From positions 39,040 through 103,039 of the IMG/VR virus record IMGVR_UViG_3300036670_000209: a stretch of 64,000 bases of DNA; one strand, written 5' to 3'. Shown one piece after another: positions 1 through 28,221 of the stretch. The translations under genes were made by a program, and so were the position numbers. The notes under the pieces were generated by a model, which was not told the origin of the DNA, made no database searches, and saw only the letters and a program-made list of their open reading frames with translations. Numbering within the stretch: the first letter of the stretch is position 1; the number at the start of each line of letters is the position of its first letter. The stretch is from a virus.

Positions 1-277
1 CCCTGGCCTGATCCAGGGTCATATCAAAATATTTGATAATATCAGGGCTGGAAAACAGGGCCATGATAGCATCCTGTGCTGCTGGAATCAGGGTACATCG
101 CTCGGAGTTCCAGGATGCTAGCTCCTCACTATGACGTATGGGATCCTGTGCTGCCATGGTCTCAAAAAATTCTGTTTTCCACTGATGTTTTGGCAGATCC
201 ACTGTGATCTGCAGATGTTTATACAGTTTGATGGCGGTCTGTATTTCTTTGATTCTGGTGGTATATGTGTGAGTCAT
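1..277 (-). CDS. family A-like protein, 3' end outside window
   Basis: Open frame from the ATG at 277 reading off the left edge, so the C-terminus is missing. The first about 60 residues are unlike the standard family A start, but near the edge the protein reads D-A-I-M-A-L-F, then Y-F-D-M-T-L-D-Q-A, which lines up with the conserved family A segment (A-I-L-A-L-V-A-Y-D-H, then Y-L-T-M-T-A-D-Q-L). It is therefore a divergent relative without the Ala/Trp repeats. A sigma70-type promoter lies directly upstream. Function unknown. Confidence 0.6.
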   Translation of the reverse strand, partial: MTHTYTTRIKEIQTAIKLYKHLQITVDLPKHQWKTEFFETMAAQDPIRHSEELASWNSERCTLIPAAQDAIMALFSSPDIIKYFDMTLDQAR

Positions 278-300
278 GTGGATTATTGTATAATACAAAC

Positions 301-329
301 ACTATAACATCTGACCACCAGCACGTCAA
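301..329 (-). promoter_or_regulatory. sigma70-type promoter
   Basis: Minus strand: -35 TTGACG (329-324), 17 bp, -10 TATAGT (306-301). It drives the partial gene starting at 277. Confidence 0.7.
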
Positions 330-367
330 CTACACCGGTTCCCATGACCGATCGCCACAGATAGTCA

Positions 368-730
368 CTATTCTGGTATCTGGTTCACTGCCAGGTATTG
401 TAACCAAGCCCACAGCAATAATCCCCCAGGATCCTGTTTAAGTGCAATTAACACCAGTGCCTCCCCACTGGGCATGGTCATGTAACTGGCACATGACTCA
501 TGATATACCAGTGCCCACATGGCTGCAATATTAGCTGCGTGACCGTTGGACCGCCTGGAACACTCACTGAATATCAGCAACTGGTCGTTTGATATTGGAT
601 GGGCCACATGGTCCCATGTCTCCATGAGTGTGACAAATACCCCGTCGCAGTTATGCGAGCTAGTTTCCACTGGAAATTGTAGGACTCGATCAATGTGTGC
701 CGAATTGGGCAGGTGACTCCATGCTGTCAT
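368..730 (-). CDS. family A protein, repeat-poor copy
   Basis: 120 residues of unknown function. The start at 730 is chosen because the standard family A N-terminus (M-T-A-W-S-H-L-P-N) begins there, with an AAGGA ribosome site just upstream; a longer frame with MNNQGNI exists. The centre lacks the Ala/Trp repeats and the C-terminal block is degenerate (M-T-M-P-S-G-E-A-L, then G-L-L-L-W-A-W-L), making it one of the most diverged full-length copies. The last gene of the 4.8-0.4 kb run. Confidence 0.7.
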   Translation of the reverse strand: MTAWSHLPNSAHIDRVLQFPVETSSHNCDGVFVTLMETWDHVAHPISNDQLLIFSECSRRSNGHAANIAAMWALVYHESCASYMTMPSGEALVLIALKQDPGGLLLWAWLQYLAVNQIPE

Positions 731-803
731 GATGTTTCCTTGGTTGTTCATGTGACAATTATAACACCAGATCTGTGGTTATCGTCTGAATTTCTTCTAA
801 AAA
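726..803 (-). repeat. 78-bp direct repeat, copy 1
   Basis: Identical to 1674-1751. It spans the start and ribosome site of one family A gene, a TATAAT-containing intergenic stretch and the C-terminal codons of the next family A gene (tail reading E-E-I-Q-T-I-T-T-D-L-V-L). Identity through the non-coding part points to recent duplication or gene conversion. Confidence 0.85.
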
Positions 804-1244
804 AGTCACATATGGCACCAGTAGAATCGCGGCAGGATCGTCACTCAAAGCACTCCAAATTTGCAGTTGATCTGCGGTCATGGTCAGGTAGCGGGCACAG
901 TGATCATAGGCAATCAGAGCCAATACTGCATTCCATGCTGCATCCCGTGCTGCGGACCATACTGCATGCTGTGCCGCCGTGAGGGTGTTACTTATCACAG
1001 GCCATGCGACATCCCATACCTGAGTCTTGGTCACGATCCAAGCAGCTATCCGTGGTGCATCAGGTATCAGGTAGTTAACTGTTCTCAGAGTCATATCCAT
1101 GCGCAACGCCATGCTTTCGCTGGTCTTGTCAAGTGTTTCCCTTGCGTGTTGATAGTTGACACCGGATGCAGAGAAGGATGATGACATATTGGCTATCACT
1201 GCATCAATATGCAGTGCATTGGGCAAGAGAATACATTCAGTCAT
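759..1244 (-). CDS. family A protein
   Basis: 161 residues. Start at 1244 (M-T-E-C-I-L-L-P-N-A), preceded by AAGGAAACATC. The central region is longer than usual and only partly repetitive (D-A-A-W-N-A-V near residue 125). The C-terminal block is typical, but the D-Q-L-Q-I-W-S-A-L segment is followed by an unusual E-E-I-Q-T-I-T-T-D-L-V-L tail, shared exactly with the copy ending at 1707. The upstream family A gene stops at 1241, so the two overlap by ATGA and are probably translationally coupled. Confidence 0.75.
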   Translation of the reverse strand: MTECILLPNALHIDAVIANMSSSFSASGVNYQHARETLDKTSESMALRMDMTLRTVNYLIPDAPRIAAWIVTKTQVWDVAWPVISNTLTAAQHAVWSAARDAAWNAVLALIAYDHCARYLTMTADQLQIWSALSDDPAAILLVPYVTFLEEIQTITTDLVL

Positions 1245-1678
1245 GATGTTTCCTTTGTTTTGATGTGCCCCAAGAAAGTCACATAGGGTAGTAATAGCAC
1301 ACTGGCAGGATCTGTGCTCAGTGCACCCCATATTTTCAGTTGATCTGAGGTCATGGTCAGATATCGGTCACAGTGATCATGGGCAACTAATGCCAATATT
1401 GCATCCCATACCATGTTACTTACTCCGTCACGTGCCACATATCGTGCCACATCCTTGGCTGTATCCTTCGCTGTACCCAATGCCGCATTCCATGCCGCAC
1501 TCAAAGCCACATCCCTTGCCGCATCAAATACCGCACTCAATGCCACATTTCTTGCCGCGGCCCATACCACATCCCTTGTCGCATCGCGTGCTGGCATTGG
1601 TCTAATAGGAAACAATTCCACGTAGGTCAACACCTGATCAATATGTGCCGCATTGGGCAAGTGACTCCATTCAGTCAT
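1241..1678 (-). CDS. family A protein, long Ala-repeat copy
   Basis: 145 residues. Start at 1678 (M-T-E-W-S-H-L-P-N-A-A-H-I-D-Q-V-L). The centre is a clear four-residue repeat in which Ala-Ala or Val-Ala alternates with Arg-Asp, Trp-Asn or Lys-Asp (about residues 38-90). C-terminal conserved block ends L-L-L-P-Y-V-T-F-L. Tail K-T-K-E-T-S encodes the AAGGAAAC ribosome site of the next gene, whose ATG overlaps this TGA. Confidence 0.8.
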   Translation of the reverse strand: MTEWSHLPNAAHIDQVLTYVELFPIRPMPARDATRDVVWAAARNVALSAVFDAARDVALSAAWNAALGTAKDTAKDVARYVARDGVSNMVWDAILALVAHDHCDRYLTMTSDQLKIWGALSTDPASVLLLPYVTFLGHIKTKETS

Positions 1679-1751
1679 GATGTTTCCTTGGTTGTTCATG
1701 TGACAATTATAACACCAGATCTGTGGTTATCGTCTGAATTTCTTCTAAAAA
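1674..1751 (-). repeat. 78-bp direct repeat, copy 2
   Basis: Identical to 726-803 (see there). The first difference on the right is A/G at position 804/1752. Confidence 0.85.
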
Positions 1752-2117
1752 GGTCACATAGGGGACCAGTAGAATTGCTGCAGGATCATCGCTCAATGTG
1801 CCCCATACCCGCAGTTGATCAGCGGTCATGGTCAGGTAGCGGGCACATTGGTCATAGGCCACTAATGTCAGTATGGCCTGTCTTGCTGCATTCCATTGTG
1901 ACCCCCAGACCACATCTCCTGCTGAATTGCGTAGTGCTTCTTTTTTCACTGCATTCCATATATCATCCCTGGATCGCTCATAAATATTATCCCATACTGC
2001 ATCTATTGCTGGATTTACTTTCTCTGGCAGTACACCAATTCTGTCGGGATATGCCAGTAAAGTAGCCAGCACCTGATTGATGTGCACAGCATTGGGCAAG
2101 TGACTCCATGCAGTCAT
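1707..2117 (-). CDS. family A protein
   Basis: 136 residues starting at 2117 (M-T-A-W-S-H-L-P-N-A-V-H-I-N). The centre has only traces of the repeat (W-N-A-V, W-G-S-Q-W-N-A-A). It shares its last about 27 codons and downstream DNA with the gene ending at 759. The ATG overlaps the TGA of the upstream gene (2114-2117). Confidence 0.75.
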   Translation of the reverse strand: MTAWSHLPNAVHINQVLATLLAYPDRIGVLPEKVNPAIDAVWDNIYERSRDDIWNAVKKEALRNSAGDVVWGSQWNAARQAILTLVAYDQCARYLTMTADQLRVWGTLSDDPAAILLVPYVTFLEEIQTITTDLVL

Positions 2118-2551
2118 ACCTGTTCCTTTATTGCAGCATGTTCAAATAGGGTCACATAGGGCAGTAACAGCACGGCTGCAGGATCTGCACCCAACGCACA
2201 CCATACACGCAGTTGATCTGCGGTCATGGTCAGATATCGGTCACTGTGGTCATAGGCAATCAGGGCCAATATTGCATCCTGCCCACTATCCCATCGTTCC
2301 ATGTCAACAGGCATATCACTTACGGTATCCCATGCTGCATCCCGCGCTGCGTTCCATGCCGTATTCTTTGCTGCATCATGGACCACATCCTGCGCCACCT
2401 CCCATGCCGCAAAGCGCGGACTCCATTCCGGCTCACCCTCTGTGCTTCTGGTACGTTGATAGGATGACCCAAATGCATATGAACATACTGCCAAGTCAGA
2501 CAACACCTGATCAATATGTGCCGCATTGGGCAAATAGTTCCAATCGGTCAT
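2114..2551 (-). CDS. family A protein
   Basis: 145 residues starting at 2551 (M-T-D-W-N-Y-L-P-N-A-A). Repeat section about residues 48-85 with A-W-E-V-A-Q-D-V-V-H-D-A-A-K-N-T-A-W. C-terminal block typical (D-Q-L-R-V-W-C-A-L, V-L-L-L-P-Y-V-T-L-F). Tail I-K-E-Q-V carries the AAGGAACAGG ribosome site for the next gene. ATGA overlaps at both ends. Confidence 0.78.
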   Translation of the reverse strand: MTDWNYLPNAAHIDQVLSDLAVCSYAFGSSYQRTRSTEGEPEWSPRFAAWEVAQDVVHDAAKNTAWNAARDAAWDTVSDMPVDMERWDSGQDAILALIAYDHSDRYLTMTADQLRVWCALGADPAAVLLLPYVTLFEHAAIKEQV

Positions 2552-2991
2552 GATATATTCCTTGTTTGGTCACAACATCCACTGATCGTCATTGCTTCAA
2601 TACTTTCCAATATGGTCACATAGGAAAGTACCAAGGCGCTGGAAGGATAACCGCTTAACTCACTCCACACTTGCAGTTCATCTGCAGTCATGGACAAATA
2701 ATGACCACTATGATCGTATGCAACCAGTGCCAACGTCACATCCCACATGATCCATCTAGCTGACCATGTCCATGTGATCAACTTTGACGGCATCGCTGAT
2801 TCCACTGCCACCAACACTGCATCCCATTCCTTTTCTCTTGATGCTGCTTTGACCGCACGCCACGCAGCGTGCTGTATGTCTGTGCCGCATCCTGTGTGAT
2901 GCACTGCATCAAGATGAGTGGAGAATGCCCCCACTTTAGACATTACCTGATCTATGTGCCGTGCATTGGGCAAGTGACTCCATGCAGTCAT
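2548..2991 (-). CDS. family A protein, extended tail
   Basis: 147 residues starting at 2991 (M-T-A-W-S-H-L-P-N-A-R-H-I-D). The centre is weakly repetitive; the C-terminal block is diverged (M-T-A-D-E-L-Q-V-W-S-E-L, A-L-V-L-S-Y-V-T-I-L-E) and is followed by an extra roughly 18-residue tail not seen in neighbours. Coupled by ATGA on both sides. Confidence 0.75.
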   Translation of the reverse strand: MTAWSHLPNARHIDQVMSKVGAFSTHLDAVHHTGCGTDIQHAAWRAVKAASREKEWDAVLVAVESAMPSKLITWTWSARWIMWDVTLALVAYDHSGHYLSMTADELQVWSELSGYPSSALVLSYVTILESIEAMTISGCCDQTRNIS

Positions 2992-3428
2992 GCTGTTTCC
3001 TTGTTGATGTTTTCCAAGAAAGTCACATATGGAACCAACAAGATCGCTGCTGGATCTGTGCCCAGGGCGCTCCAGGCGCGTAGCTGATCTGCGGTCATGG
3101 TCAGATATCGGTCACTGTAATCATAGGCAACCAATGCCAATATCGCATCCCGCATCACTATGTCGACGATCACCTGCCGTGGCGCATCCCATGCTGCATC
3201 CCTTGCCGCACGCCATGCCGTACGCCGTGCCGCATCCCTTGCCGCATCCCTTGCCGCATCCCACGCCACATTCTTCGCCGCACGCCATGCCGCGCCCGAT
3301 GGCAGCAAAGCTTGTGCCACCTCTTGTGACACACATGCGGCTGGAATTGGTGTAATATGTAACAACCGTATATTGGCTATCACTGCATCAATATGCAGTG
3401 CATTGGGCAGGTGACTCCATGCAGTCAT
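2988..3428 (-). CDS. family A protein, long Ala-repeat copy
   Basis: 146 residues starting at 3428. The centre is rich in A-R-D-A-A-R-D-A-A and W-R-A-A units before a P-R-Q-V-I-V-D-I segment shared with the copies at 20229-20693 and 20690-21121, a sign of segment shuffling between copies. C-terminal block typical; tail N-K-E-T-A encodes the ribosome site of the next gene. Confidence 0.8.
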   Translation of the reverse strand: MTAWSHLPNALHIDAVIANIRLLHITPIPAACVSQEVAQALLPSGAAWRAAKNVAWDAARDAARDAARRTAWRAARDAAWDAPRQVIVDIVMRDAILALVAYDYSDRYLTMTADQLRAWSALGTDPAAILLVPYVTFLENINKETA

Positions 3429-3838
3429 GCCAGTTCCTTTGAGGTATTATGCTCCATGAAAGTCACATAGGGCAGTAACAGTACGGCTGCTGGATCTGTG
3501 CCCAGGGCGCTCCAGGCGCGTAGCTGATCTGCGGTCATGGTCAGATATCGGTCACTGTAATCATAGACAACCAGTGCTAGTATCACAGACTGTGATACAT
3601 CCCATGCTGCACCCCATGACGAATTCCACGCCGCATTCCACGCTGCATCTAATATTGTATCTCTTGATGCTGCTTGGGCCGCAAGCCATGCCACATCTTG
3701 CGCCACATCCTGTACCGCACGCCATGCCGTATGGCCCGCCACACTACATGCTGGCGTCGGTCTAACATGTAATAACTGTATGTTAATCAACGCCTGATCT
3801 ATGTGCCGTGCATTGGGCAAGTGACTCCATGCAGTCAT
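3425..3838 (-). CDS. family A protein
   Basis: 137 residues starting at 3838 (M-T-A-W-S-H-L-P-N-A-R-H-I-D-Q-A-L). Repeat section about residues 33-80 with Trp at every fourth position (A-A-W-N-A-A-W-N-S-S-W-G-A-A-W). The C-terminal 40 codons are near identical to the two adjacent genes. Tail T-S-K-E-L-A provides AAGGAAC for the next start. Confidence 0.8.
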   Translation of the reverse strand: MTAWSHLPNARHIDQALINIQLLHVRPTPACSVAGHTAWRAVQDVAQDVAWLAAQAASRDTILDAAWNAAWNSSWGAAWDVSQSVILALVVYDYSDRYLTMTADQLRAWSALGTDPAAVLLLPYVTFMEHNTSKELA

Positions 3839-4230
3839 GCCAGTTCCTTTGAGGTATTATGCTCCATGAAAGTCACATAGGACAGTAACAAGATCGCTGC
3901 AGGATCTGCGCTCAGCGCACCCCATACCTGTAGTTGGTCTGAGGTCATGGTCAAATATCGGTCACAATAATCATAGGCAACTAATGCCAATATCGCATAC
4001 TGCGCCGCATCTCTCGCCGTATTCCTTGCCGCACTCCACGATGTAGTCCATGCCGCATCTAGTATTCTATCTCTCGATGCTGCGTTGGCCGCATCTCTTG
4101 CCGCATACCATGCCGCAACCACCGCCGCATCCCGCGCCACACTGTGTACTGGTGTAATGAGCAACGACCGTATATTGGCTATCACTGCATTAATATGCCG
4201 TGCATTGGGCAAGTGACTCCACGCGTTCAT
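3835..4230 (-). CDS. family A protein, short copy
   Basis: 131 residues starting at 4230 (M-N-A-W-S-H-L-P-N-A-R-H-I-N). Repeat section with A-A-W-Y-A-A-R-D-A-A-N-A-A. Its last about 30 codons nearly repeat those of the gene ending at 3425, including T-S-K-E-L-A. ATGA overlap with both neighbours. Confidence 0.8.
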   Translation of the reverse strand: MNAWSHLPNARHINAVIANIRSLLITPVHSVARDAAVVAAWYAARDAANAASRDRILDAAWTTSWSAARNTARDAAQYAILALVAYDYCDRYLTMTSDQLQVWGALSADPAAILLLSYVTFMEHNTSKELA

Positions 4231-4706
4231 ATGTTTTCCTGAGTAGTAGTTGTTATACCAGTTGTGTTGATCGCGTCACGTAGTTGTAACCAAGTGAGTA
4301 TTGTTCTCCAGCCCATGGGTTGCGCCAGTGCCAGTATGACTCCTGCGTGCTCCAATCCCATGAGAGAATAATCAATCAATGAATCATTGGTAACCAGCAG
4401 CATGATCATATCCAGCAACCAGCGGGCTCGCTCCAGGTCAATGTCGTGGTCCCGATCACTATCACTTAGATAATAACCACTATCACCTAGATAATAACCC
4501 AGTGGGCCGTTCATCTGATGGTCCACTGCTTCACAGATCTGAACTTGCTGTATGGTTTTGGCATCTCTGCACTGTAGCCAATCATCATCGCACAAACACT
4601 GCACATCAATCTGAGGTAGGCTATCCCAGATGTTTGATTTGGACTGCATGAGCTGAATCAGCTCATCAATCAGCTGGGCGTTGGCCAGATGTGACCAGAA
4701 TACCAT
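4227..4706 (-). CDS. family A protein, diverged and acidic
   Basis: 159 residues starting at 4706 (M-V-F-W-S-H-L-A-N-A-Q-L-I-D-E-L). The N-terminal motif is kept, but the Ala/Trp repeats are replaced by an acidic, Tyr-rich section with a near-duplicated G-Y-Y-L-G-D-S / G-Y-Y-L-S-D-S pair. The C-terminal block is recognisable (M-L-L-V-T-N-D-S, Y-S-L-M-G-L-E, T-I-L-T-W-L). Its ATG overlaps the TAA of the miniature gene upstream (TAATG). Confidence 0.7.
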   Translation of the reverse strand: MVFWSHLANAQLIDELIQLMQSKSNIWDSLPQIDVQCLCDDDWLQCRDAKTIQQVQICEAVDHQMNGPLGYYLGDSGYYLSDSDRDHDIDLERARWLLDMIMLLVTNDSLIDYSLMGLEHAGVILALAQPMGWRTILTWLQLRDAINTTGITTTTQENI

Positions 4707-4804
4707 TATTGTGCTTCCAGGTGTATGGCATGACGTACATGCAAATAGGGCATCAGCAGCTGGTCCAGGTAAACTGCATTGGGCAGCTGACACCAGGCAT
4801 TCAT
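4706..4804 (-). CDS. miniature family A gene (32 residues)
   Basis: A 32-codon frame linked by ATGA to the UvdE stop (4801-4804) and by TAATG to the next family A gene (4706). It starts M-N-A-W-C-Q-L-P-N-A-V-Y-L-D-Q-L-L, the family A N-terminus, and passes directly into M-P-Y-L-H-V, resembling the family A C-terminal L-P-Y-V-T-F. The whole middle (about 90-100 residues) is missing, so it looks like an internally deleted copy kept in frame and in the overlap chain. Too short for standard gene callers. Confidence 0.55.
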   Translation of the reverse strand: MNAWCQLPNAVYLDQLLMPYLHVRHAIHLEAQ

Positions 4805-5811
4805 GATATACACTGGGAAAATGCCAGGCTGGCAATATTCTTACCCTTGGCCTCGCACTGTATGTCAAAGTCTTGTGAAAATCCTGCTGCCCAGCGATTC
4901 ACCGCGTGATTCCAATAATAGTCAGAATGCGCTCGTAATTTCTGACGATTATGCCCAGTGCCCAGCAGACTGGCCAGATCTGGCCTGACCTCAGGATCAT
5001 GTGCCACCAGATAGTCCTCACGAGATACCGAATAATGACACGCAGGTCTGACACCTCTCCAGCTGTCAATAACTCGCCGGACCTGATCGTCCTGGGGATC
5101 AATATATTCCCCTTCACGAATCCAATTGTGATGGATATCCATCACAATGGGCACAATGTCTGCAATTTGCAAGCAGTCACTGAGCCCCCAACTATTTTCT
5201 TCGTTTTCTATGGTAATACAATTCCTGGCCTCAGGGCTCAGCTGCTGGTATGCACGTCGGATACCATCAGGGCCCTGTTTACCGCTGATGTGCACATTGA
5301 TCTTAAAGTCTTGAAAAGTTTTGCCGTAGCCCATCCAGCGTGCCATGTCAGCATGATACTCAAACTCAGCCAGACTACGCTCCACGATACCAGGATTTTC
5401 ACTGGCCAGTACCACAAACTGTCCTGGATGCATGCTCAGTCTCACATCCAGTGCTCGGGCAGCCTGCCCCACCCTGGCAAACTCCCTGGCGCAGTATTCA
5501 CGAACATCGTCACGTTGCCAGAAATAACTCCAATCTCGCTGTGTATACACGGGCAGCTGATTGCTGCCCAGCCGCACCATGCGCAGATTGTCCGGCAGGC
5601 TGCCCACATACTGCACCAGGTTCAGTGCACTGCCGGTATTATGCACCATGATGTCCCACAGTCTTTGCTCGGCATCTGCACGTGTCTGTCTGTTTAACCA
5701 GGCCACCGTGGTACATTTTTCAGTACGAGCTCGCTGAATTTCTTCCAGTAATTTCACTGGCTGTGTTTGGTCTGGATGTAAATACTTACAGCAAAATCCC
5801 ACTCTACCCAT
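4801..5811 (-). CDS. uvsE: UV damage endonuclease UvdE/UvsE
   Basis: 336 residues, the usual size. TIM-barrel UV-damage endonuclease that nicks DNA 5' of pyrimidine dimers and other lesions, starting an alternative excision repair. Motifs seen: M-G-R-V-G-F-C at the start, L-S-M-H-P-G-Q-F-V-V-L near residue 140, I-E-N-E-E near 215, P-I-V-M-D-I-H-H-N near 235 and H-S-D-Y near 295, carrying the metal-binding His/Glu/Asp residues of the family. The ATG at 5811 is chosen (GGAG ribosome site 5-6 nt upstream); a TTG two codons earlier is less likely. The gene heads the family A run, coupled to it by ATGA. With the DenV homologue at 58.9 kb the phage has two independent dimer-repair enzymes. Confidence 0.92.
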   Translation of the reverse strand: MGRVGFCCKYLHPDQTQPVKLLEEIQRARTEKCTTVAWLNRQTRADAEQRLWDIMVHNTGSALNLVQYVGSLPDNLRMVRLGSNQLPVYTQRDWSYFWQRDDVREYCAREFARVGQAARALDVRLSMHPGQFVVLASENPGIVERSLAEFEYHADMARWMGYGKTFQDFKINVHISGKQGPDGIRRAYQQLSPEARNCITIENEENSWGLSDCLQIADIVPIVMDIHHNWIREGEYIDPQDDQVRRVIDSWRGVRPACHYSVSREDYLVAHDPEVRPDLASLLGTGHNRQKLRAHSDYYWNHAVNRWAAGFSQDFDIQCEAKGKNIASLAFSQCIS

Positions 5812-5872
5812 GATCAACTCCAGTAATATAATTAATAATTCGCAATGTGTACATTATACACTATAATGCTGG

Positions 5873-6889
5873 TTAGAAACCAACCAGGTCCTGAATAATT
5901 TCATAGTGATCTTCAAAGCACTCGGCACTGTTTATTTCTGCAAAAGGTACCCAACGTGCTCGTGTGGCATCATCTGAACCTTTTACACGTGGTAAATCAC
6001 CATCAGGCAACCGAATCAGTTGCACATGGGTGATGATTCTACCACGCGCACTGCGATCTATTGCATCATATACCCGGCTGCGTACAATGCTACCACGTAA
6101 CACTGGTTCAGGTACCCTGATCAGGGTTTCTTCTCTGAGTTCTCGGATAGCTGCATCCACTACGGTGTTGTCAGTCTGTGCATTAATGTATCCGCCAGGC
6201 AGCGCCCATAACCCACGGCCCGGCTCAGCGCGTCGTTTGATCATGAGCACATGTCCGCTGCACACCACCACTGCATCAGCAGTGCTGAATATAGGAGGAT
6301 ACCTGAGCCCAGCATATTGCCGATTATGATCCACGATAAATTCACGCTCCCTGATCACCTGAGAGTAGTCATCAGTGCGGGCAAAATTCTCCAACCAGTC
6401 ATGCACTGGCAAGGGTACCACTCCTTTGATGAAATTATAGTTCACCTGGCGTTTGAAATACAGGTCCCTGATGTCCACTGCGCTCAGTGGCTGTATACTT
6501 TCCACATTCTCGTATGCCCACTGTGGAAACATATCCAGATAAAAGGAACTTTCATCTTTTTTATGCCCAATCATGCCCACACGGGCACCGGAATGCGCAT
6601 GTGCGGCCACCAGCTGTTGTACCCTGGTGGCCCAGGCCTGGTTATTGTACAGGCTGTCAGTGGTGGATTCCACGGAAATATTCAAGCTCAATCCGCCAGT
6701 GGCCAGGCGTATCATGTGCGCACGTTCTACAAAAGTAAATGGATTCTTGAATGTTCGGGGAAGATTTGCACTACCCACCACAATCACCAGTTTGTCACAC
6801 ATGGCGGTTGCTCGCTTGATGATCTCCAGGTGAGCATTGTGCAGTGGTTGGAATCTGCCAATAAAAACCAAAACGTCATATTTGTTCAT
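5873..6889 (-). CDS. nadM: bifunctional NMN adenylyltransferase / Nudix hydrolase
   Basis: 338 residues with two domains. N-terminal nucleotidyltransferase (about 1-170): G-R-F-Q-P-L-H-N-A-H (residues 11-20, the HxGH-type site) and S-A-V-D-I-R (136-141), as in NadM-type enzymes joining NMN and ATP into NAD+. C-terminal Nudix domain (about 200-330): G-G-Y-I-N at 232-236 and R-E-L-R-E-E-T at 249-255, a Nudix box with about two extra residues in its loop and the first Glu not obvious. The same fusion is known from large vibriophages (KVP40-type). In phages such genes feed NAD+ salvage and can counter NAD-depleting defences; the partner NadV (Nampt) is not in this window. Stop overlaps nothing; start overlaps the upstream stop by ATGA. 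Confidence 0.9.
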   Translation of the reverse strand: MNKYDVLVFIGRFQPLHNAHLEIIKRATAMCDKLVIVVGSANLPRTFKNPFTFVERAHMIRLATGGLSLNISVESTTDSLYNNQAWATRVQQLVAAHAHSGARVGMIGHKKDESSFYLDMFPQWAYENVESIQPLSAVDIRDLYFKRQVNYNFIKGVVPLPVHDWLENFARTDDYSQVIREREFIVDHNRQYAGLRYPPIFSTADAVVVCSGHVLMIKRRAEPGRGLWALPGGYINAQTDNTVVDAAIRELREETLIRVPEPVLRGSIVRSRVYDAIDRSARGRIITHVQLIRLPDGDLPRVKGSDDATRARWVPFAEINSAECFEDHYEIIQDLVGF

Positions 6890-7218
6890 TTTAGTGACTC
6901 CTTTGCCAGTTTAAACACCTTCAATGCGGTGTCAGCTGCTATACCTTCAGCCTGGCAGGCGTGAGTAAATTTCAGAGCTTTTTGCAAATACTCTCCATGA
7001 GTATGAGCAAGCCAGTCATCCTGTTTGTTTTTCATCTCATAGAACCATCCGCAACCATCCGTGTGATTATGAGTACAAAATATACTGTGCAGTGTTTTGG
7101 CCAGTTGGTAACGGGGTTCAAGTTTAGCTAATGTGAGCTGTTGCTCAAGATCGGCCAATTCTCGGGTACGTTTTTTGATTTCTTCTTCAATTTCGAAGAG
7201 TGTTAGGGCTGTTGACAT
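6886..7218 (-). CDS. conserved phage protein, coiled-coil start
   Basis: 110 residues of unknown function. Residues about 8-35 are a charged heptad-like coiled coil (I-E-E-E-I-K-K-R-T-R-E-L). The rest has L-A-K-T-L-H, C-T-H-N-H-T-D, C-G-W-F-Y-E and G-E-Y-L-Q-K-A, a pattern common in phages; the protein at 24687-25160 has the same core. Possible Cys/His metal site. First gene behind the promoter at 7284-7312; couples to nadM. Confidence 0.7.
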   Translation of the reverse strand: MSTALTLFEIEEEIKKRTRELADLEQQLTLAKLEPRYQLAKTLHSIFCTHNHTDGCGWFYEMKNKQDDWLAHTHGEYLQKALKFTHACQAEGIAADTALKVFKLAKESLK

Positions 7219-7283
7219 TGAAAAATCCTTTCAATTAATATCATGTTGCGTTGCGTCTATCGCATTGCTTGCTGTTCCATATC

Positions 7284-7312
7284 AGTATAACACCAAATTA
7301 TATATCTGTCAA
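7284..7312 (-). promoter_or_regulatory. sigma70-type promoter
   Basis: TTGACA (7312-7307), 17 bp, TATACT (7289-7284), upstream of the gene at 7218 and the nadM-uvsE-family A run. Confidence 0.75.
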
Positions 7313-7339
7313 GTGCTGGCACCCAGTGTGACACTGTGA

Positions 7340-7564
7340 TTATTGGTTAACTCCAAAATGTTTCCTAATCCGTTTTGAACACTCGCTGACTATCGAGCCC
7401 CTTGAATCTGACTCGGATACTATCCAACATTGTGTTACACATTCTTCTACAATCAACTCAGCAAACTTTTTTAACTCTTGTTCGCAATCATCACCTGATT
7501 CACTGAACCAAGAATCCATGAATCCGGCCACATCAGCCAGTTGTTTTATTCGTTCATTTATCAT
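7340..7564 (-). CDS. family B small protein (MNERI/FAELI)
   Basis: 74 residues. Family B is defined here by an N-terminal N-E-R-I-x-x-L-A, a central F-A-E-L-I-V-x-E-C helix and a C-terminal K-H-F-G-V; such proteins are frequent small phage genes of unknown function, probably all-helical. This copy has an acidic insertion (S-E-S-G-D-D-C-E). Its ATG overlaps the TGA of the gene at 7561. Confidence 0.75.
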   Translation of the reverse strand: MINERIKQLADVAGFMDSWFSESGDDCEQELKKFAELIVEECVTQCWIVSESDSRGSIVSECSKRIRKHFGVNQ

Positions 7565-7761
7565 GTGGGTTTTCTCAAACTATCAGCAAACCATTCATTC
7601 AGATTAGCATTCAGTGCGGGCAAAGTATCCTCATTGAATTCATGCTCGCACTCCGCTCTAATCATTCGAAATAATTCAGTGATTCGTTCTGAATGACTAA
7701 AACCCTGCGTGACTTCGCGTCGAATAATTCTACGCATGAACCATTGTTCAAAAATATTCAT
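7561..7761 (-). CDS. small protein with L-N-x-N-L-x-E-W-F end
   Basis: 66 residues, basic N-terminus (M-R-R-I-I-R-R-E-V) and C-terminal L-N-A-N-L-N-E-W-F-A-D-S-L-R-K-P-T. The same C-terminal sentence occurs in the shorter gene at 19087-19221, so the two are paralogues. Function unknown. Confidence 0.65.
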   Translation of the reverse strand: MNIFEQWFMRRIIRREVTQGFSHSERITELFRMIRAECEHEFNEDTLPALNANLNEWFADSLRKPT

Positions 7762-7807
7762 TCCTTACTCCTAAAATGTTGTTTGATTTTTGTTGATCCA
7801 CTGGTGC

Positions 7808-8065
7808 TCATACTAGATCTTTATCTACACTGTCCATCATTTTTACAATATGGTCATCCAATGTAATTTTTCCATCTGTATATTCATATAGATACGCAGT
7901 TGGATCATTAATCGTAACGGCCAAATCCTGGTGTACAAAATCGTATTCTTTGAATGTCCAAGCTGGCAAACTTTTATCATAAACTCGAAAAACATACTTG
8001 TCATGCGACCACATGATAACTCCATTGATACCATCTGCACTAGTGTTTGAAATAAGCTTGCTCAT
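7808..8065 (-). CDS. hypothetical protein
   Basis: 85 residues, start at 8065, overlapped by the TGA of the upstream gene (8062). Predicted mixed beta structure (V-I-M-W-S-H-D-K-Y-V-F-R-V-Y), acidic helical end. No family recognised. Confidence 0.6.
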   Translation of the reverse strand: MSKLISNTSADGINGVIMWSHDKYVFRVYDKSLPAWTFKEYDFVHQDLAVTINDPTAYLYEYTDGKITLDDHIVKMMDSVDKDLV

Positions 8066-8259
8066 TTTACAAACCTTGGCATTCTATTATGTATGCCATC
8101 ATAAATGTAGCAGCCCAAACACGGCAACATACCTTCGAGATCATCACTGGAATGACGATCAATGAGAGAATGGTCACCATCAACTAGCATATAATATAAA
8201 CTGGTTGTACCTTCGTCAATCTGCGGTTTAAAAATATGTTCTAGGTCAGTTAGTGTCAT
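8062..8259 (-). CDS. hypothetical protein
   Basis: 65 residues, acidic (E-E-G-T-T-like centre, S-S-D-D-L-E-G), two close Cys in P-C-L-G-C-Y. Lies in the tight run between two family B genes and a membrane protein; no recognisable domain. Confidence 0.55.
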   Translation of the reverse strand: MTLTDLEHIFKPQIDEGTTSLYYMLVDGDHSLIDRHSSDDLEGMLPCLGCYIYDGIHNRMPRFVK

Positions 8260-8261
8260 TA

Positions 8262-8456
8262 TTAATCTCCAAAATGTTGTTTGATTTTCTTATTCACAAA
8301 GGCATAACGCTCAGTATCAATTAATCCCTCTGCCCATTGTGCCCCAACATCAGCACATTCCATCACAATTAACTCGGCGAACTTTGCCAAGTCAATATTG
8401 TGCTGAGAATAACTGTGATGGCATTGTGCAGCAAGCTGTAAAATTCGTTCGTTCAT
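8262..8456 (-). CDS. family B small protein
   Basis: 64 residues: M-N-E-R-I-L-Q-L-A-A-Q, then K-F-A-E-L-I-V-M-E-C-A, then K-I-K-Q-H-F-G-D. A compact, typical family B member. ATG overlaps the TGA of the membrane protein gene at 8453. Confidence 0.75.
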   Translation of the reverse strand: MNERILQLAAQCHHSYSQHNIDLAKFAELIVMECADVGAQWAEGLIDTERYAFVNKKIKQHFGD

Positions 8457-8635
8457 TTATGTAACCATGTGTTATATGCAATATTCGTACCAATGAGTAG
8501 CCAAATGATAGCAAGTCCAGCCTGGCTGTGAAACAAGAAATTTAAACCAGCTGCTGTGTTTAGTGCACTGACTGTATATCCGATGGGCCTATGATTATGT
8601 GATAACCAGTCTGCAACAAAGATAATTTTATTCAT
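8453..8635 (-). CDS. small membrane protein
   Basis: 60 residues, with a hydrophobic stretch about residues 38-56 (L-A-I-I-W-L-L-I-G-T-N-I-A) and a weaker one at 20-35. Likely inner-membrane. Overlaps the preceding gene by 8 nt and the next by ATGA. Confidence 0.6.
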   Translation of the reverse strand: MNKIIFVADWLSHNHRPIGYTVSALNTAAGLNFLFHSQAGLAIIWLLIGTNIAYNTWLHK

Positions 8636-9179
8636 TTTTAATTCCCAAATGTGTTGCCAGCTGCTGCTCTGGTTTGCTGATATGGTTTAATATCAGCTGT
8701 ATATAATTTGCCAACAGTATTGCCGCAGGGTCATTTTTAAGCAGCCCCCAGGGCAGTAGTTGGTTGGCGTTCGCTTCCAGATAGTCAGATGCATGGTCCC
8801 ATATCAGTATGGCTTGCATGGCATCCACTATGATCACACTGCTGAAGTTCACTATACTATCATGATATGCCTGGAACTCGTTACTGAACATACGTTCCAC
8901 ACGTATTTGACGCAGTTGCCACCAAACTTTGTGCTGGGCGCTAGTTTCCGGCTGCTGGCGTACCAGTGCCACCATCAACTCCCGGGCACCAGCCAACTGA
9001 TGCAGATCCACTGCACCAGGATCAATGGAGGGCACCACCGGTGCATTCTGCATATGTTCCCACATGTTTTCAAGTATTGCACTGTTGGGTTGTTGTGTAA
9101 ATATTGGCTTCATATGGTGTGTTTGATGGACTGATACCAGTATACAGTAAAGCGACATACCTGTCAAACTCCAGATCAT
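8628..9179 (-). CDS. divergent family A protein
   Basis: 183 residues from 9179. The family A signature starts only at an internal Met (9113: Q-Q-P-N-S-A-I-L-E-N-M-W), with the C-terminal block A-I-L-I-W-D-H-A-S-D-Y-L and P-A-A-I-L-L-A-N-Y-I-Q-L. The upstream Met at 9179 overlaps the preceding stop by ATGA and would add a hydrophobic 22-residue leader; neither start has a good ribosome site, so 9113 is possible. The Ala/Trp repeats are absent. Confidence 0.6.
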   Translation of the reverse strand: MIWSLTGMSLYCILVSVHQTHHMKPIFTQQPNSAILENMWEHMQNAPVVPSIDPGAVDLHQLAGARELMVALVRQQPETSAQHKVWWQLRQIRVERMFSNEFQAYHDSIVNFSSVIIVDAMQAILIWDHASDYLEANANQLLPWGLLKNDPAAILLANYIQLILNHISKPEQQLATHLGIKNE

Positions 9180-9355
9180 AGCATGTTAAACAGTGCTGGC
9201 ATGTAGTAAAAATAGGTAAATAACATCCAAATAGCCATCCATCTCTGTTGCCGGCCCTGGCAATATTCACGATAGGTCAATAGCACCAAGGAAATATAAA
9301 TCACATGAGGAATTAATAATTTGATTATCATCTGGGTACTCATAGCAGTGGGCAT
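9176..9355 (-). CDS. small two-helix membrane protein
   Basis: 59 residues from the ATG at 9355, below the usual calling cut-off. Two hydrophobic segments (about 9-27, I-I-K-L-L-I-P-H-V-I-Y-I; and 40-58, M-A-I-W-M-L-F-T-Y-F-Y-Y-M) separated by a basic turn (R-E-Y-C-Q-G-R-Q-Q-R). The TGA overlaps the next ATG. Function unknown. Confidence 0.5.
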   Translation of the reverse strand: MPTAMSTQMIIKLLIPHVIYISLVLLTYREYCQGRQQRWMAIWMLFTYFYYMPALFNML

Positions 9356-9422
9356 GGTTATTTAATTGGCAGGCCATGTGCAGGCTGAGCGAACATGGCA
9401 TCTGGTTTCGTAAGTGGAATTT

Positions 9423-9761
9423 TTAAAAGGCAATGCCATCTGTCCACTCGGGAGGTGGTATAAATTGGGGTGTGAGCGGGCCTTGCCAATTGGGGTCGCT
9501 CCAATTGTCAAAAACCTGATTGTATGCCGAGTTTGTGCTGTGTGACGGGCAGCGCAGTCGATCCTGATCTTCACTGAGCTTGCGCATGGTATCAATCATA
9601 CTGTAAGGGTGCCAGGCATCCCAAATGGTAACATGGCCATCACAGTAGGTACCATCCCATGCACCATTGATCACCCAAAAATCAAAATCATCGGGTGATC
9701 GTGATCGGTTCACTATGACCAACAGCAGGGGACGATGTGGCAGTCCCAACATCAGTCTCAT
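9423..9761 (-). CDS. hypothetical protein
   Basis: 112 residues. Begins with a hydrophobic stretch (L-P-H-R-P-L-L-L-V-I-V-N) and is rich in Trp, Asp and Pro afterwards. The frame at 9362-9595 covers the same DNA but lacks the coupling seen here: this ATG (9761) overlaps the TGA of the small gene upstream. No family recognised. Confidence 0.55.
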   Translation of the reverse strand: MRLMLGLPHRPLLLVIVNRSRSPDDFDFWVINGAWDGTYCDGHVTIWDAWHPYSMIDTMRKLSEDQDRLRCPSHSTNSAYNQVFDNWSDPNWQGPLTPQFIPPPEWTDGIAF

Positions 9762-9859
9762 GGTTCAATTCCCATGTGTTGGCTGATGCTGTCAATCAAC
9801 CCGCTGTGATCCACATCAGTTTTCAAGTGATCAGCCAGCTGTTGTATTAGATTGCTCAC
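9758..9859 (-). CDS. very small coupled ORF (33 residues, GTG start)
   Basis: A 33-codon frame with GTG start at 9859 overlapping the preceding TGA (GTGA) and a TGA overlapping the next ATG (ATGA). Reads M-S-N-L-I-Q-Q-L-A-D-H-L-K-T-D-V, helical and acidic. The double overlap is the main argument that it is translated. Confidence 0.4.
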   Translation of the reverse strand: MSNLIQQLADHLKTDVDHSGLIDSISQHMGIEP

Positions 9860-9939
9860 TGGTCAAGTGCCAAGTGGTCGATGTTATCTGGTACCTGATT
9901 CAGGTATGCAGCGTTGGTCAAGTGGTTATGATCTGTCAT
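9856..9939 (-). CDS. miniature family A gene (27 residues)
   Basis: 27 codons from the ATG at 9939, which overlaps the stop of the full family A gene at 9936. Reads M-T-D-H-N-H-L-T-N-A-A-Y-L-N-Q-V, clearly the family A N-terminus, then ends after about ten more residues. A truncated copy lacking the repeats and C-terminal block, still in the overlap chain (GTGA to the next frame). Confidence 0.5.
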   Translation of the reverse strand: MTDHNHLTNAAYLNQVPDNIDHLALDQ

Positions 9940-10394
9940 GTTGCCTTTGTTTGTATTGATTGTGCTTGCGTCAAGTGTGCTGGTACCCCCAGGGCGTTTG
10001 CAGTTCCCATGAAAGTTACGTAGGGCAGCAATAGCACACTGGCAGGATCTGCGTTTAACTTACTCCAAACAGCCAGGTGATCTGAGGTCATGGTCAGATA
10101 TCGGTCACAGTGATCATAGGCGATCAGGGCCATTATTGCATCTCTTGCTGCATCCCTTGCTACACTCACAGCAGCCACCTCCCAGGTTACATCACGTAGC
10201 GCATTACGCGCCGCGCGCTTTGCTGAAATCCATGCGGCATCCCGTTCCGCATTCCACAACTCACCCCAGGCCGCATTCCAAGCCGTATTCCTTGCCGCAT
10301 CACACGCCGGTATTGGTCTAATAGAGAACGACTGTATGTGGGCCAATACCTGATCAATATGCGCCGCATTGGGTAAATGACTCCATGCAGTCAT
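9936..10394 (-). CDS. family A protein
   Basis: 152 residues, start 10394. Repeats about 38-85 (A-A-W-G-E-L-W-N-A-E-R-D-A-A-W). Carries a tail of about 20 residues after L-L-L-P-Y-V-T-F-M, longer than in its neighbours. Coupled by ATGA on both sides. Confidence 0.8.
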   Translation of the reverse strand: MTAWSHLPNAAHIDQVLAHIQSFSIRPIPACDAARNTAWNAAWGELWNAERDAAWISAKRAARNALRDVTWEVAAVSVARDAARDAIMALIAYDHCDRYLTMTSDHLAVWSKLNADPASVLLLPYVTFMGTANALGVPAHLTQAQSIQTKAT

Positions 10395-10831
10395 GCTGTT
10401 TCCTTTGAGGTAGCAGGTTCCATGAGGGTCACGTAGGGCAACAACAAGATTGCCGCCGGTTCTGTGCTCAACTTACTCCAAACAGCCAGTTCGTCAGCAG
10501 TCATGGTCAGATATTGGGCACTGTGGTCATAGGCAATCAGGGCTATTATCACATCCTGTGCCGCATCCCATGCCACATCCAATGCCGCATTCCATGCCAC
10601 ATCCCCCGTTACGGTCAGCACCAGTGCACTGTATACCGCACGCCGCGCCGCGCACCATGCTGCATCTTGTGACACCTCTTGTACCCCATCCTGTGCCGCA
10701 CGCCAGGCCGCATTTTGTGCCACCTTTTGTACCACATGTTCGGTTGGCATTGATCTAATAGAGAACGACCCCAAGTTGGCTATCACTGCATCAATATGCA
10801 GTGCATTGGGCAAGTGACTCCATGCAGTCAT
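10391..10831 (-). CDS. family A protein
   Basis: 146 residues, start 10831. The repeat block is interrupted by a V-Y-S-A-L-V-L-T-V-T-G-D segment, a variant of which is also in the copy at 20690-21121, again suggesting exchange of internal segments. C-terminal block uses D-E-L-A-V-W-S-K-L. Tail T-S-K-E-T-A carries AAAGGAAAC for the next start. Confidence 0.8.
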   Translation of the reverse strand: MTAWSHLPNALHIDAVIANLGSFSIRSMPTEHVVQKVAQNAAWRAAQDGVQEVSQDAAWCAARRAVYSALVLTVTGDVAWNAALDVAWDAAQDVIIALIAYDHSAQYLTMTADELAVWSKLSTEPAAILLLPYVTLMEPATSKETA

Positions 10832-11241
10832 ACTGGTTGCTCGGTTGTGGAGTGTTCCAATAGGGTCACATAGGGCAGTAGTAGGATTGCCGCTGGATCT
10901 GTGCCCAGGGCGCTCCAGGCGCGTAGTTGATCTGCGGTCATGTTCATGTATCGGTCACTGTGGTCATAGGCAACTAATGCCATTATTGCATCTTGTACCG
11001 ACCGCCATGCCCCATGCCACGCCACATCCCATGCCACATTCCATGCCGCATCCCATGCCGCATCCCATACCACATCTCTTGATGCCGCCTGCGCCGCACC
11101 CCATGCCGCATCACGTGCCACATCCCATGATGCACGCCATGCCGCATCATGTGCCGGCATTGGTCTAATAGAGAACAACTTCATGTTGATCAATGCCTGA
11201 TCTATGTGCCGTGCATTGGGCAAGTGACTCCATTCCGTCAT
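10828..11241 (-). CDS. family A protein, Trp-rich repeat
   Basis: 137 residues, start 11241 (M-T-E-W-S-H-L-P-N-A-R). The repeat is very regular, Trp at every fourth position for many turns (A-A-W-D-A-A-W-N-V-A-W-D-V-A-W). Tail T-E-Q-P-V. ATGA overlap on both sides. Confidence 0.82.
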   Translation of the reverse strand: MTEWSHLPNARHIDQALINMKLFSIRPMPAHDAAWRASWDVARDAAWGAAQAASRDVVWDAAWDAAWNVAWDVAWHGAWRSVQDAIMALVAYDHSDRYMNMTADQLRAWSALGTDPAAILLLPYVTLLEHSTTEQPV

Positions 11242-11675
11242 GCTGTTTCCTTGGTTGTGATGTGTTCCAATAGGGTCACATAGGGCAGTAACAGCACACA
11301 TGCAGGATCCGCACCCAACGCACTCCATACCTGTAGTTGATCTGCTGTCATGTGCATGTATCGGTCACAGTGGTCATAGGCGATCAGGGCCATTATTGCA
11401 TCTTGTGCCGACCGCCATGCCACATCTTGCACCACATCTATTGCCGCGTTCCACGCCGCATCCCATGCCCCATTCCATGCCACATCTCTTGATGCCACCA
11501 GCGCCGCGTTCCACGCCGCGTTCCACGCCGCGTTCCACGCCGCGTCTCGTGCTGTACGCCATGCCGCACGCCATGCTGCATCATGTGCCGGCATTGGTCT
11601 AATAGAGAACGACTCCAAGTTGGCCAATACCTGATCTATGTGCCGTGCATTGGGCAAATGACTCCATTCCGTCAT
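11238..11675 (-). CDS. family A protein, perfect 12-bp repeats
   Basis: 145 residues, start 11675. Contains 3.5 perfect copies of a 12-bp unit (11503-11544) encoding the A-A-W-N four-residue repeat, so the length polymorphism of the family can be explained by slippage or unequal exchange. The 54 bp around its end are identical to those of the next copy upstream. Confidence 0.82.
   Translation of the reverse strand: MTEWSHLPNARHIDQVLANLESFSIRPMPAHDAAWRAAWRTARDAAWNAAWNAAWNAALVASRDVAWNGAWDAAWNAAIDVVQDVAWRSAQDAIMALIAYDHCDRYMHMTADQLQVWSALGADPACVLLLPYVTLLEHITTKETA
11503..11544 (-). repeat. perfect 12-bp tandem repeat (3.5 copies)
   Basis: Plus-strand unit gccgcgttccac repeated without mismatch inside a family A gene; in frame it encodes Ala-Ala-Trp-Asn units. 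Looser 12-bp periodicity runs through most family A genes. Confidence 0.9.
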
Positions 11676-12085
11676 GCTGTTTCCTTGGTTGTGATGTGTT
11701 CCAATAGGGTCACATAGGGCAGTACTAGGATTGCCGCTGGATCCGTACCCAACGCGCCCCATATTTTCAGTTGATCTGCGGTCATGGTCAGATATTGGGC
11801 ACTGTGGTCATAGGCAACTAATGCCATTATTGCATCTTGTGCCGATCGCCATGCCACATCCCATTCCACATCTCTTGCCGCGTTCCACGCCGCATTCCAT
11901 GCCGCATTCCATGCCACATCTCTTGATGCCGCCTGCGCCGCATCCCATGCCGCATCTCGTGCTGTACGCCGTGCCGCACGCCGTACAGCATCATATGCCG
12001 GCATTGGTCTAATAGAGAACAACTGCGTGTTAATCAATGCCTGATCTATGTGCCGTGCATTGGGCAAATAACTCCATTCCGTCAT
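11672..12085 (-). CDS. family A protein
   Basis: 137 residues, start 12085 (M-T-E-W-S-Y-L-P-N-A-R). Repeats mix A-R-R-T-A-R-D and A-A-W-N-A-A-W units. Same T-T-K-E-T-A tail as the copy downstream. ATGA overlaps at both ends. Confidence 0.82.
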   Translation of the reverse strand: MTEWSYLPNARHIDQALINTQLFSIRPMPAYDAVRRAARRTARDAAWDAAQAASRDVAWNAAWNAAWNAARDVEWDVAWRSAQDAIMALVAYDHSAQYLTMTADQLKIWGALGTDPAAILVLPYVTLLEHITTKETA

Positions 12086-12507
12086 GCTGTTTCCTTTGAG
12101 GTAGCATGCTCCAAGAAAGTCACATATGGAATCAACAAGATCGCAGCGGGATCCTCGTTCAGAGCACCCCATACCTGTAGTTGGTCTGAGGTCATGGTCA
12201 AATATCGGTCACAATAATCATAGGCAACTAATGCCAATATCGAATACCTTGCCGCAGTCCGTGCCGCATCCAATGCCGCACTCCACGATGTAGTCCATGC
12301 CGCATCCAATTCCGCATACCATGCCGCATCTCTTGCCGCATACCATGCTGCATCTCTTGCCGCAGCTATTGCCGCATCCAATGCCGCAGCTATGATCTCA
12401 GCCTGACACGTTTGATATGCCCTGCTGGCTTCAGTGGGATACGAGTGTAAGTTGGCTATCACTGCATCAATATGCCGTGCATTGCGCAAGTGACTCCATT
12501 TGGTCAT
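12082..12507 (-). CDS. family A protein, Tyr variant of repeat
   Basis: 141 residues, start 12507 (M-T-K-W-S-H-L-R-N-A-R; the usual Pro is Arg). The repeat uses A-A-W-Y-A-A-R-D and A-A-I-A-A-A-R-D units. First gene of the 12.5-9.4 kb family A run. Confidence 0.8.
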   Translation of the reverse strand: MTKWSHLRNARHIDAVIANLHSYPTEASRAYQTCQAEIIAAALDAAIAAARDAAWYAARDAAWYAELDAAWTTSWSAALDAARTAARYSILALVAYDYCDRYLTMTSDQLQVWGALNEDPAAILLIPYVTFLEHATSKETA

Positions 12508-12533: not shown

Positions 12534-12899
12534 TTACAGGCCCAGTAGCTGGCGTTCTTCATCAGTGAGTTTGGCCAGCGCACCAGCTTTGAGTTTGAGT
12601 AAACGACTGGCCTCTGCTGCTTTTTGCTCCTTGTACTCCACTGCACGATCCAAGTCAAACAGATCCAGGTCTGACTTCACGCTCCATTTGGAACTGATTA
12701 GAAAAGCATCACCGCACTGATCGTCAAGATCCTCAAGGTAGAAATCCGAGCCTCTGACACTGAGCTCAATGTACACTGCACCTGCACGATCCAACACTCC
12801 CATCATGCGCATGATATAAGTGTCTCGGTCCAGCTGTTCAACCTGAGTGTGCACTGAGTCATTGCGCTGTGCTCTTTGTGCTTGGGTCTCTTTTGTCAT
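12534..12899 (-). CDS. family D protein
   Basis: 121 residues, start 12899 (M-T-K-E-T-Q), with the promoter at 12933-12961 upstream. Paralogous to 23241-23609: both share Y-I/V-x-R-M-M-x-V near residue 30, a beta-rich centre, Y-K-E-x-x-A-E, L-K-A-x-A-L-x-K-L-T and a C-terminal L-L-G-L or S-L-N-L. A 20-residue fragment of the same family lies at 14649-14711. Function unknown. Confidence 0.75.
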   Translation of the reverse strand: MTKETQAQRAQRNDSVHTQVEQLDRDTYIMRMMGVLDRAGAVYIELSVRGSDFYLEDLDDQCGDAFLISSKWSVKSDLDLFDLDRAVEYKEQKAAEASRLLKLKAGALAKLTDEERQLLGL

Positions 12900-12932: not shown

Positions 12933-12961
12933 ATTATAGCACAGTTGAATAACCCTGTCAA
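12933..12961 (-). promoter_or_regulatory. consensus sigma70 promoter with conserved leader
   Basis: TTGACA (12961-12956), 17 bp, TATAAT (12938-12933): a perfect consensus. Followed by a leader (ACACATAAACAG..., then AGAAAG as weak ribosome site) shared with the promoters at 13.4, 14.0, 17.5, 18.0 and 18.5 kb. Confidence 0.85.
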
Positions 12962-14961: not shown

Positions 14962-15291
14962 TCATAATTTCTTAACAGTGAATTCGTGTCCAAGAACATA
15001 ATACTGGTCATTATCCGAGTCACACCCATAAAGAAATGTTGATGTACCAATATACAGATCTTCACCTATGCTGAATTTTCTCCAATATTCATCATCACCA
15101 CAGCATGCGCGTACTGAGCAATCTTCCAGAGCAAGATTAAATAACTCATTTTCTATGCTTTTGCTTAATTCTTCTAATGCTTCACCAGAGTTGATTACGG
15201 GTTTCTTACTTAATTCATCTAACTTGCGATTCAAAACCCCAAGTTTACACGTTAGTTCAAAAATATTATATTCGAGTTCTTGTTTATTCAC
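14962..15291 (-). CDS. family C protein
   Basis: 109 residues with a GTG start at 15291 that overlaps the preceding TGA (GTGA) and makes the N-terminus align with its paralogues at 18073 and 18547. Shared features: two or three Cys in the middle (C-S-V-R-A-C-C-G), Y-W-R-K-F-S-I-G-E-D-L-Y, and Y-Y-V-L-G-H-E-F-T-V near the end. Ends earlier than the paralogues. Function unknown. Confidence 0.65.
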   Translation of the reverse strand: MNKQELEYNIFELTCKLGVLNRKLDELSKKPVINSGEALEELSKSIENELFNLALEDCSVRACCGDDEYWRKFSIGEDLYIGTSTFLYGCDSDNDQYYVLGHEFTVKKL

Positions 15292-15596
15292 TGTGCATCT
15301 GCAATCATAGGACATTGTCCGGTCATGCTGGCTGAGACACTGTTTGGACAAATCCAACCAGATTGTTTTTTAATATCAAAATGTTTTACTATATCACTAT
15401 TCAACCAAGAGGCAGTTTCTTGTGTGTTGCGTCCAAGGTCAATGGATTCACCCATAGTCGCATTTACAACATCTAAACAGTCTTTTATAATTAGCTCTGC
15501 AAAATGTTCTATTGCGGCTCTCTGAACTGGACCGGTTTTAAAGAAGTCTGCAATACGTTCATTGCATTGTGCTATTTCTTGTATTCGTTCGTTCAT
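15288..15596 (-). CDS. family B small protein with tail
   Basis: 102 residues from 15596 (M-N-E-R-I-Q-E-I-A), F-A-E-L-I-I-K-D-C in the middle, K-H-F-D-I near residue 78, then a 24-residue extra tail (S-V-S-A-S-M-T-G). The tail covers the end overlapping the family C gene. Confidence 0.7.
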   Translation of the reverse strand: MNERIQEIAQCNERIADFFKTGPVQRAAIEHFAELIIKDCLDVVNATMGESIDLGRNTQETASWLNSDIVKHFDIKKQSGWICPNSVSASMTGQCPMIADAQ

Positions 15597-15657
15597 GACA
15601 ATATTCCAATTAATATTATGGTTAAACCGATTACTATTAACCATTTACACCAGTTGA

Positions 15658-15864
15658 TTATTCAACTCCAAAATGTTTCTTGATGTGCCAGCATGGGTGA
15701 ATACCATCTTTGGATTCCGGCACAGTATCTGGTAACACATCAGAAACTACATCTAGACATTCCTGAATGATCAATTGGGCGAACCTTTCATACACCGTGT
15801 CGTTAGGCAGTGCGACATAATGCACACCAGCCTGTTCCAATAGGTCTCGAATTTGTTTGTTCAT
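15658..15864 (-). CDS. family B small protein
   Basis: 68 residues, start 15864 with GAGGAG upstream. M-N-K-Q-I-R-D-L-L-E-Q-A-G, F-A-Q-L-I-I-Q-E-C-L, I-K-K-H-F-G-V-E. A close relative is 17216-17434, which shares K-D/E-G-x-H-P-x-W. Its A of ATG is shared with the preceding TGA. Confidence 0.78.
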   Translation of the reverse strand: MNKQIRDLLEQAGVHYVALPNDTVYERFAQLIIQECLDVVSDVLPDTVPESKDGIHPCWHIKKHFGVE

Positions 15865-20212: not shown

Positions 20213-20228
20213 GCTGTTTCCTTGGTTG

Positions 20229-23643: not shown

Positions 23644-23672
23644 ATTATAGCATTATCTGAATAAACTGTCAA
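23644..23672 (-). promoter_or_regulatory. consensus sigma70 promoter
   Basis: TTGACA (23672-23667), 17 bp, TATAAT (23649-23644), with AACACATAA leader start. Confidence 0.85.
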
Positions 23673-28007: not shown

Positions 28008-28008
28008 G

Positions 28009-28215: not shown

Positions 28216-28221
28216 GATATT

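Follow-up and report, generated by a model that had tools for sequence, protein, structure and literature searches.

What does a phage gain from many copies of one small, undescribed protein, and how could the copies have accumulated? We addressed this question in a window of 64 kb, the right-hand part of a 103,039-base record from an uncultured, T4-like phage. Using an HMM profile built from the obvious copies and then iterated over related contigs, we found 25 intact genes of the family (hereafter family A) and one 32-residue N-terminal fragment in the record, all on the minus strand, with 10.7 kb of coding DNA in total. An initial annotation, made by reading the window, had counted about 27 copies, which was slightly high, but the large family is real. 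Its paralogy and tandem order were borne out by HMM matches and overlapping runs, and the motifs were as first described: the N end carries MT.WSHLPNA.HID, the C end carries AL.AYDH...YLTMTADQL..W..L..DPAA.LLLPYVT, and repeated D-A-A-W or D-A-A-R units lie between them. The intact genes comprised 19 strong copies, one clear outlier, and five divergent genes; the strong copies had E-values of 1e-46 to 1e-64 with a model that was seeded with these same 19 and that also matched the divergent copies and relatives in other phages.

The family-A genes lie at 1-4706, 9936-12507, and 19784-22808, with a solitary copy at 8628-9113. At the left edge, a divergent gene (1-277; matched by the HMM in two overlapping pieces in one frame) has its 3' end outside the window, at about window position -91, and this end is the only family-A content in the first 39 kb of the record. 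Next to it are a divergent gene of 120 amino acids (368-730), a run of eight genes with E-values of 1e-46 to 1e-59 and mostly 4-nt ATGA overlaps (759-4230; members at 759-1244, 1241-1678, 1707-2117, 2114-2551, 2548-2991, 2988-3428, 3425-3838, and 3835-4230), a divergent gene of 159 amino acids (4227-4706), and the 32-residue fragment (4706-4804), which overlaps the end of uvsE. The solitary copy is divergent and has no repeats. A run of six genes spans 9936-12507 (9936-10394, 10391-10831, 10828-11241, 11238-11675, 11672-12085, and 12082-12507), and in this part of the array there are gene-level DNA repeats (TRF period 410/434 over 10746-12388). The tandem runs placed in 1-12507 by the initial annotation are thus present, but they do not form a continuous array: UvsE, an NMN-adenylyltransferase/Nudix gene, and small unrelated genes interrupt them at about 4.8-8.6 kb and 9.2-9.9 kb. 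The second array, expected at about 19.8-22.8 kb, was found at 19784-22808 and consists of the outlier (19784-20212; E 1e-26), a run of five overlapping genes (20229-22461; members at 20229-20693, 20690-21121, 21118-21519, 21512-22009, and 22006-22461), and a divergent gene with a GTG start (22458-22808).

Two sets of candidate reading frames were rejected. Longer upstream starts in the ORF list overlap the preceding gene, and relatives begin with M[NST].W. Plus-strand ORFs with PHPMPH repeats were antisense readings of the family-A repeat and were discarded. Elsewhere in the window we noted a TctA-type tricarboxylate transporter subunit (Pfam TctA, E 3e-51) and a neighbouring gene (31372-32691 and 30452-31402), the neighbour having no Pfam or NCBIfam match and resembling, by eye, a periplasmic binding protein; an iron-sulphur assembly protein adjoining an Fe/Mn superoxide dismutase (46941-47812); and three similar-looking small genes that, by eye, are perhaps another paralogous family (14962-15357, 18073-18474, and 18547-18912). 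There was no reverse transcriptase, the enzyme that a diversity-generating retroelement would bring, among the annotated window genes.

The family-A copies are genuine genes. None of the 19 best copies had an internal stop; in a neutral simulation with 0.2 substitutions per site, on average 0.8 of 19 copies stayed intact. Among the 19 window copies, the ends are under purifying selection, with dN/dS of approximately 0.27 (N end) and 0.18 (C end), and the middle is looser, with a value of 0.51. We looked for positive selection on the middle by dN/dS among these copies and found none, and with a value of about 0.5 the initial description of the set as diversifying is not supported in that sense. 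The median dS between copies was about 0.9-1.1, and near-identical tandem copies of the kind left by recent amplification were not seen. With roughly one synonymous change per site separating the copies, the array is unlikely to be an artefact of assembly.

Neighbouring copies appear to be translationally coupled and to be transcribed early. They mostly overlap by 4 nt (ATGA), as they do in related phages, and an AAGGA-like ribosome site usually falls inside the last codons of the preceding gene; the recurrent C-terminal K-E-T-A, as read from the sequence, is therefore partly the ribosome site of the next gene. We scanned the window for TTGACA-17-TATAMT with at most one mismatch and found 22 sites (0.9 expected), 21 of them on the minus strand. 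These near-perfect sigma-70-like sites span 7284-63254 and are dense at 7-24 kb. Minus-strand sites precede family-A units at 7284-7312 (ahead of a unit in which the NMN-adenylyltransferase/Nudix and UvsE genes are found as well), 9139-9167, and 20239-20267; another, at 12933-12961, is ahead of a lead gene (12534-12899, minus strand) and the run at 9936-12507. That lead gene is a paralogue (38% identity, E 5e-23) of the lead gene of the second array's unit (23241-23609, minus strand), which has a promoter-like site upstream of it (23644-23672, minus strand). The runs starting at 12507 and 22808 therefore have paralogous lead genes at their heads, directly or one gene removed. Since sigma-70-like sites precede family-A units, early transcription by the host RNA polymerase is the natural reading of these predicted promoters.

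Family A is apparently confined to phages, and its copy number varies widely. Profile scans of IMG/VR located members on dozens of contigs from uncultured phages, the longest being 239 kb. Most related contigs carry 1 to 8 copies, and one 77.7-kb contig carries about 27 (32 matches, with five genes apparently split in two). The initial annotation had advised looking for array-size variation among related phages, and array size does vary, from 1 to about 27 copies in uncultured contigs; because of this variation, family A does not look like a known single-function family with stable copy number. No relative was found in cultured phages (tblastn with full proteins and C-terminal blocks) or in plasmids (tblastn with one protein), both searches being subject to a low-complexity filter that may mask repeats, nor in 84,980 GTDB genomes searched with short peptide patterns. 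We found no earlier description of the family in the literature.

The copies appear to have expanded separately in different phages and to have recombined with each other. A tree of the ends had 25 phage-label changes compared with a shuffled mean of 73, although few forks were strongly supported. Copies thus cluster by phage, indicating that expansion, or homogenisation within a phage, was separate in different lineages. Among window copies, N-end similarity was unrelated to C-end similarity (Mantel r 0.07 and 0.03), the two halves of the C end agreed weakly (r 0.22, p 0.04), and one C-terminal block of 69 nt is identical in copies 3835-4230 and 12082-12507, which are separated by 8 kb. The uncorrelated similarities and the shared block point to recombination between copies, with N and C ends that look shuffled; the sequences behind both the tree and the shuffling test are short.

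Family A behaves as an optional cassette at a site after an RNA-ligase-1-like gene. This T4-type ligase gene was directly upstream of family A in 10 of 10 related records holding both genes. In the reverse control, with 80 ligase loci from IMG/VR, family A adjoined the ligase in 15 and was absent beside it in 65; for 62 of the 65, the sequence ran on for 150 nt or more downstream, where family A could have been seen. At many of the empty sites, a small gene with RLRKRAEIRR directly follows the ligase, and in filled sites a homologous gene follows family A. The junctions at filled and empty sites are alike, mostly GGAG...GTATGA, and family A is therefore best described as an optional cassette bounded by translation-coupling junctions, where the breakpoints of recombination would be expected. 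In a few contigs the slot is filled by another small family (MNERI/MKERI). A second multi-copy small family, M..RI...FAELIV.EC...HFGV, which elsewhere can occupy the post-ligase slot, has at least eight copies in the window (7340-7564, 8262-8456, 15288-15644, 15658-15873, 16022-16255, 16956-17219, 17216-17434, and 22978-23202).

In our best reading, family A is an accessory family, early and dispensable, whose genes spread as cassettes that are coupled in translation. Each protein is predicted to fold into a compact bundle of helices. The N-terminal helix and the C-terminal set of helices would be constant, and the helices between them would consist of a 4-residue (12-nt) repeat that varies in its number of units. 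Copies would spread as cassettes through recombination at the shared SD-ATGA junctions and inside the repeats, and we infer with good reason both this spread and early transcription from host sigma-70-type promoters. In the host cell the proteins may act as accessory host-takeover or counter-defence binders, with many copies perhaps giving dose and a spread of target fits. We give the full proposal, a cassette-spread early family with a host-takeover or counter-defence role, a probability of about 0.4; the part concerning cassettes and repeat units we consider likely in its own right.

The copies could instead be proliferating selfishly. Recombination at junctions and repeats would keep copying genes of which selection mainly demands that they be harmless and in frame, allowing the coupled operon to be translated, and copy number would have little adaptive value. 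Several observations fit: copy number varies widely without obvious pattern, the junctions are similar, the middle is relaxed, and there are divergent copies and a fragment. However, constraint on the ends (dN/dS 0.18-0.27) exceeds what staying in frame needs, and carrying 10.7 kb of extra DNA in a packaged phage genome is costly. We consider selfish proliferation unlikely.

The accessory-family reading also includes the repeat, and the middle of the protein changes length in whole repeat units. Across a set of 125 non-identical copies, drawn from the window and from relatives, Ala, Trp, and Asp/Asn return in the middle at spacings of 4, 8, and 12 residues, and tandem-repeat analysis identified 12-nt units there, with period-12 DNA repeats in most window copies. 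Of the 125 copies, 76 had a middle length in a single class modulo 4, and among the 59 repetitive copies 51 did; with one copy per contig, the count was 27 of 40 (P 2e-8). Because the lengths share a class modulo 4, length changes by whole 12-nt units. The variable middle of four-residue units seen in the initial annotation is thus confirmed, with strict periodicity and length steps of 4 residues. Several divergent copies have lost the repeats and kept the ends.

The repeats are predicted to form hairpins within a bundle. AlphaFold2, with a 56-sequence alignment, gave a compact seven-helix protein (pLDDT 83, pTM 0.81) with the repeats folded into a helical hairpin; for a relative whose middle is much longer, the ends were similar and the middle comprised four helices, these being of medium to lower confidence (pLDDT 79, pTM 0.67 for the model). 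Based on these models, the repeats seem to form helical hairpins in a bundle and not the single adjustable helical rod first suggested. The best fold match was A0A6J5NXU4 in BFVD, an uncharacterised protein of similar length from an uncultured Caudovirales phage (probability 1.00, the only viral match to be confident on that measure), but with an E-value of 0.011 and only 23% identity. PHROG 8332, 18326, and 3416, which are phage proteins, have similar alanine-rich A-A-x-x repeats, but the matches cover the repeat only and not the constant ends that define family A; a full-profile match to PHROG 8332 or 18326 was absent, with only the repeat region aligned (for example, profile positions 145-229 of 248). 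There was no significant match in the PDB, nothing above the curated cut-offs of Pfam/NCBIfam for the window copies or 38 diverse members, and no shared significant match among PADLOC defence proteins (one of the 38 members had a weak PglZ match, E 0.0088).

A grander scheme is doubtful: a self-spreading modular system in which SD-ATGA couplers would let phage operons take up, tandemly multiply, and shuffle small early genes, the 12-nt repeat would serve as a length-tunable scaffold, and the products would be a repertoire of differently shaped inhibitors of host defence. Also improbable is a structural role, in which copies would co-assemble into a multimer or particle part with dimensions set by repeat number. 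Constant ends around a length-variable helical middle in strict 4-residue register would suit such a part, but many phages have a single copy, the neighbours are mostly small early and nucleic-acid genes and not virion genes, and the AlphaFold model, made for a single chain, is a compact bundle.

For the accessory family that we favour, gene neighbourhoods lean towards a counter-defence function. Counter-defence-type neighbours in the window phage are an RNA ligase and the NMN-adenylyltransferase/Nudix gene; in relatives, a NAMPT gene is directly upstream of family A, and there are an RF-1-domain gene and a SAM lyase. SAM lyases blunt restriction; the SAM lyase seen here had no PDB sequence match. 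Host NAD depletion can be countered by NAD restoration, as documented for the related NARP1 route (PMC12774641), and T4 uses Pnk and RNA ligase 1 to mend tRNA that PrrC has cut (PMC3014915). Family A probably acts early in infection and against the host, and its counter-defence or host-takeover role is proposed from gene context only.

It is very improbable that family A works directly with the RNA-ligase-1-like enzyme to repair RNA: the ligase lies directly upstream in the ten related records with both genes, but the reverse control weakens a direct partnership, and with most ligase loci lacking family A the partnership is not an obligate one; many family-A genes are found at other places, and in the window they are over 4 kb from the ligase. 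The window also has an RNA-repair-like group at 27072-29315 (a T4-type RNA ligase, an AAA_33 kinase, and, by eye, a metallophosphoesterase-like gene), and in one relative a second, different RNA ligase (PF09414) is directly upstream of the T4-type one (contig L034:5711-6388).

These arrays are of interest beyond one phage. About a tenth of the record is spent on one undescribed family, and at least two lineages carry 25 or more copies. The filled and empty sites suggest a concrete route by which small accessory genes could enter phage operons and multiply there while translation stays intact. If family-A proteins counter host defences, the arrays would be a ready source of new inhibitors.

Family A belongs among the lineage-specific expansions of small accessory genes in phages, and its closest precedents are already known. 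In T4, the anti-ToxIN gene tifA is amplified through recombination between microhomologies of 6-10 nt (PMC9391042), and so the proposed cassette route has a precedent. Anti-defence loci in T6 and T4 undergo SegB-driven amplification, and recent copies collapse without selection (PMC13096335). The T4 RNA-repair system (PMC3014915) is related by position: several relatives have an RNA-ligase-1-like gene immediately ahead of family A, and the window phage has such a gene too, but family A resembles neither RNA ligase 1 nor Pnk and is usually absent beside such ligases. Family A is a real, undescribed family in many uncultured phages, with unusually many maintained copies and a clear modular insertion pattern. 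As in the tifA and SegB amplifications, small genes of a T4-like phage have multiplied in tandem, here too probably through recombination; those copies are recent, whereas family-A copies are approximately one synonymous change per site apart and have been kept as separate genes.
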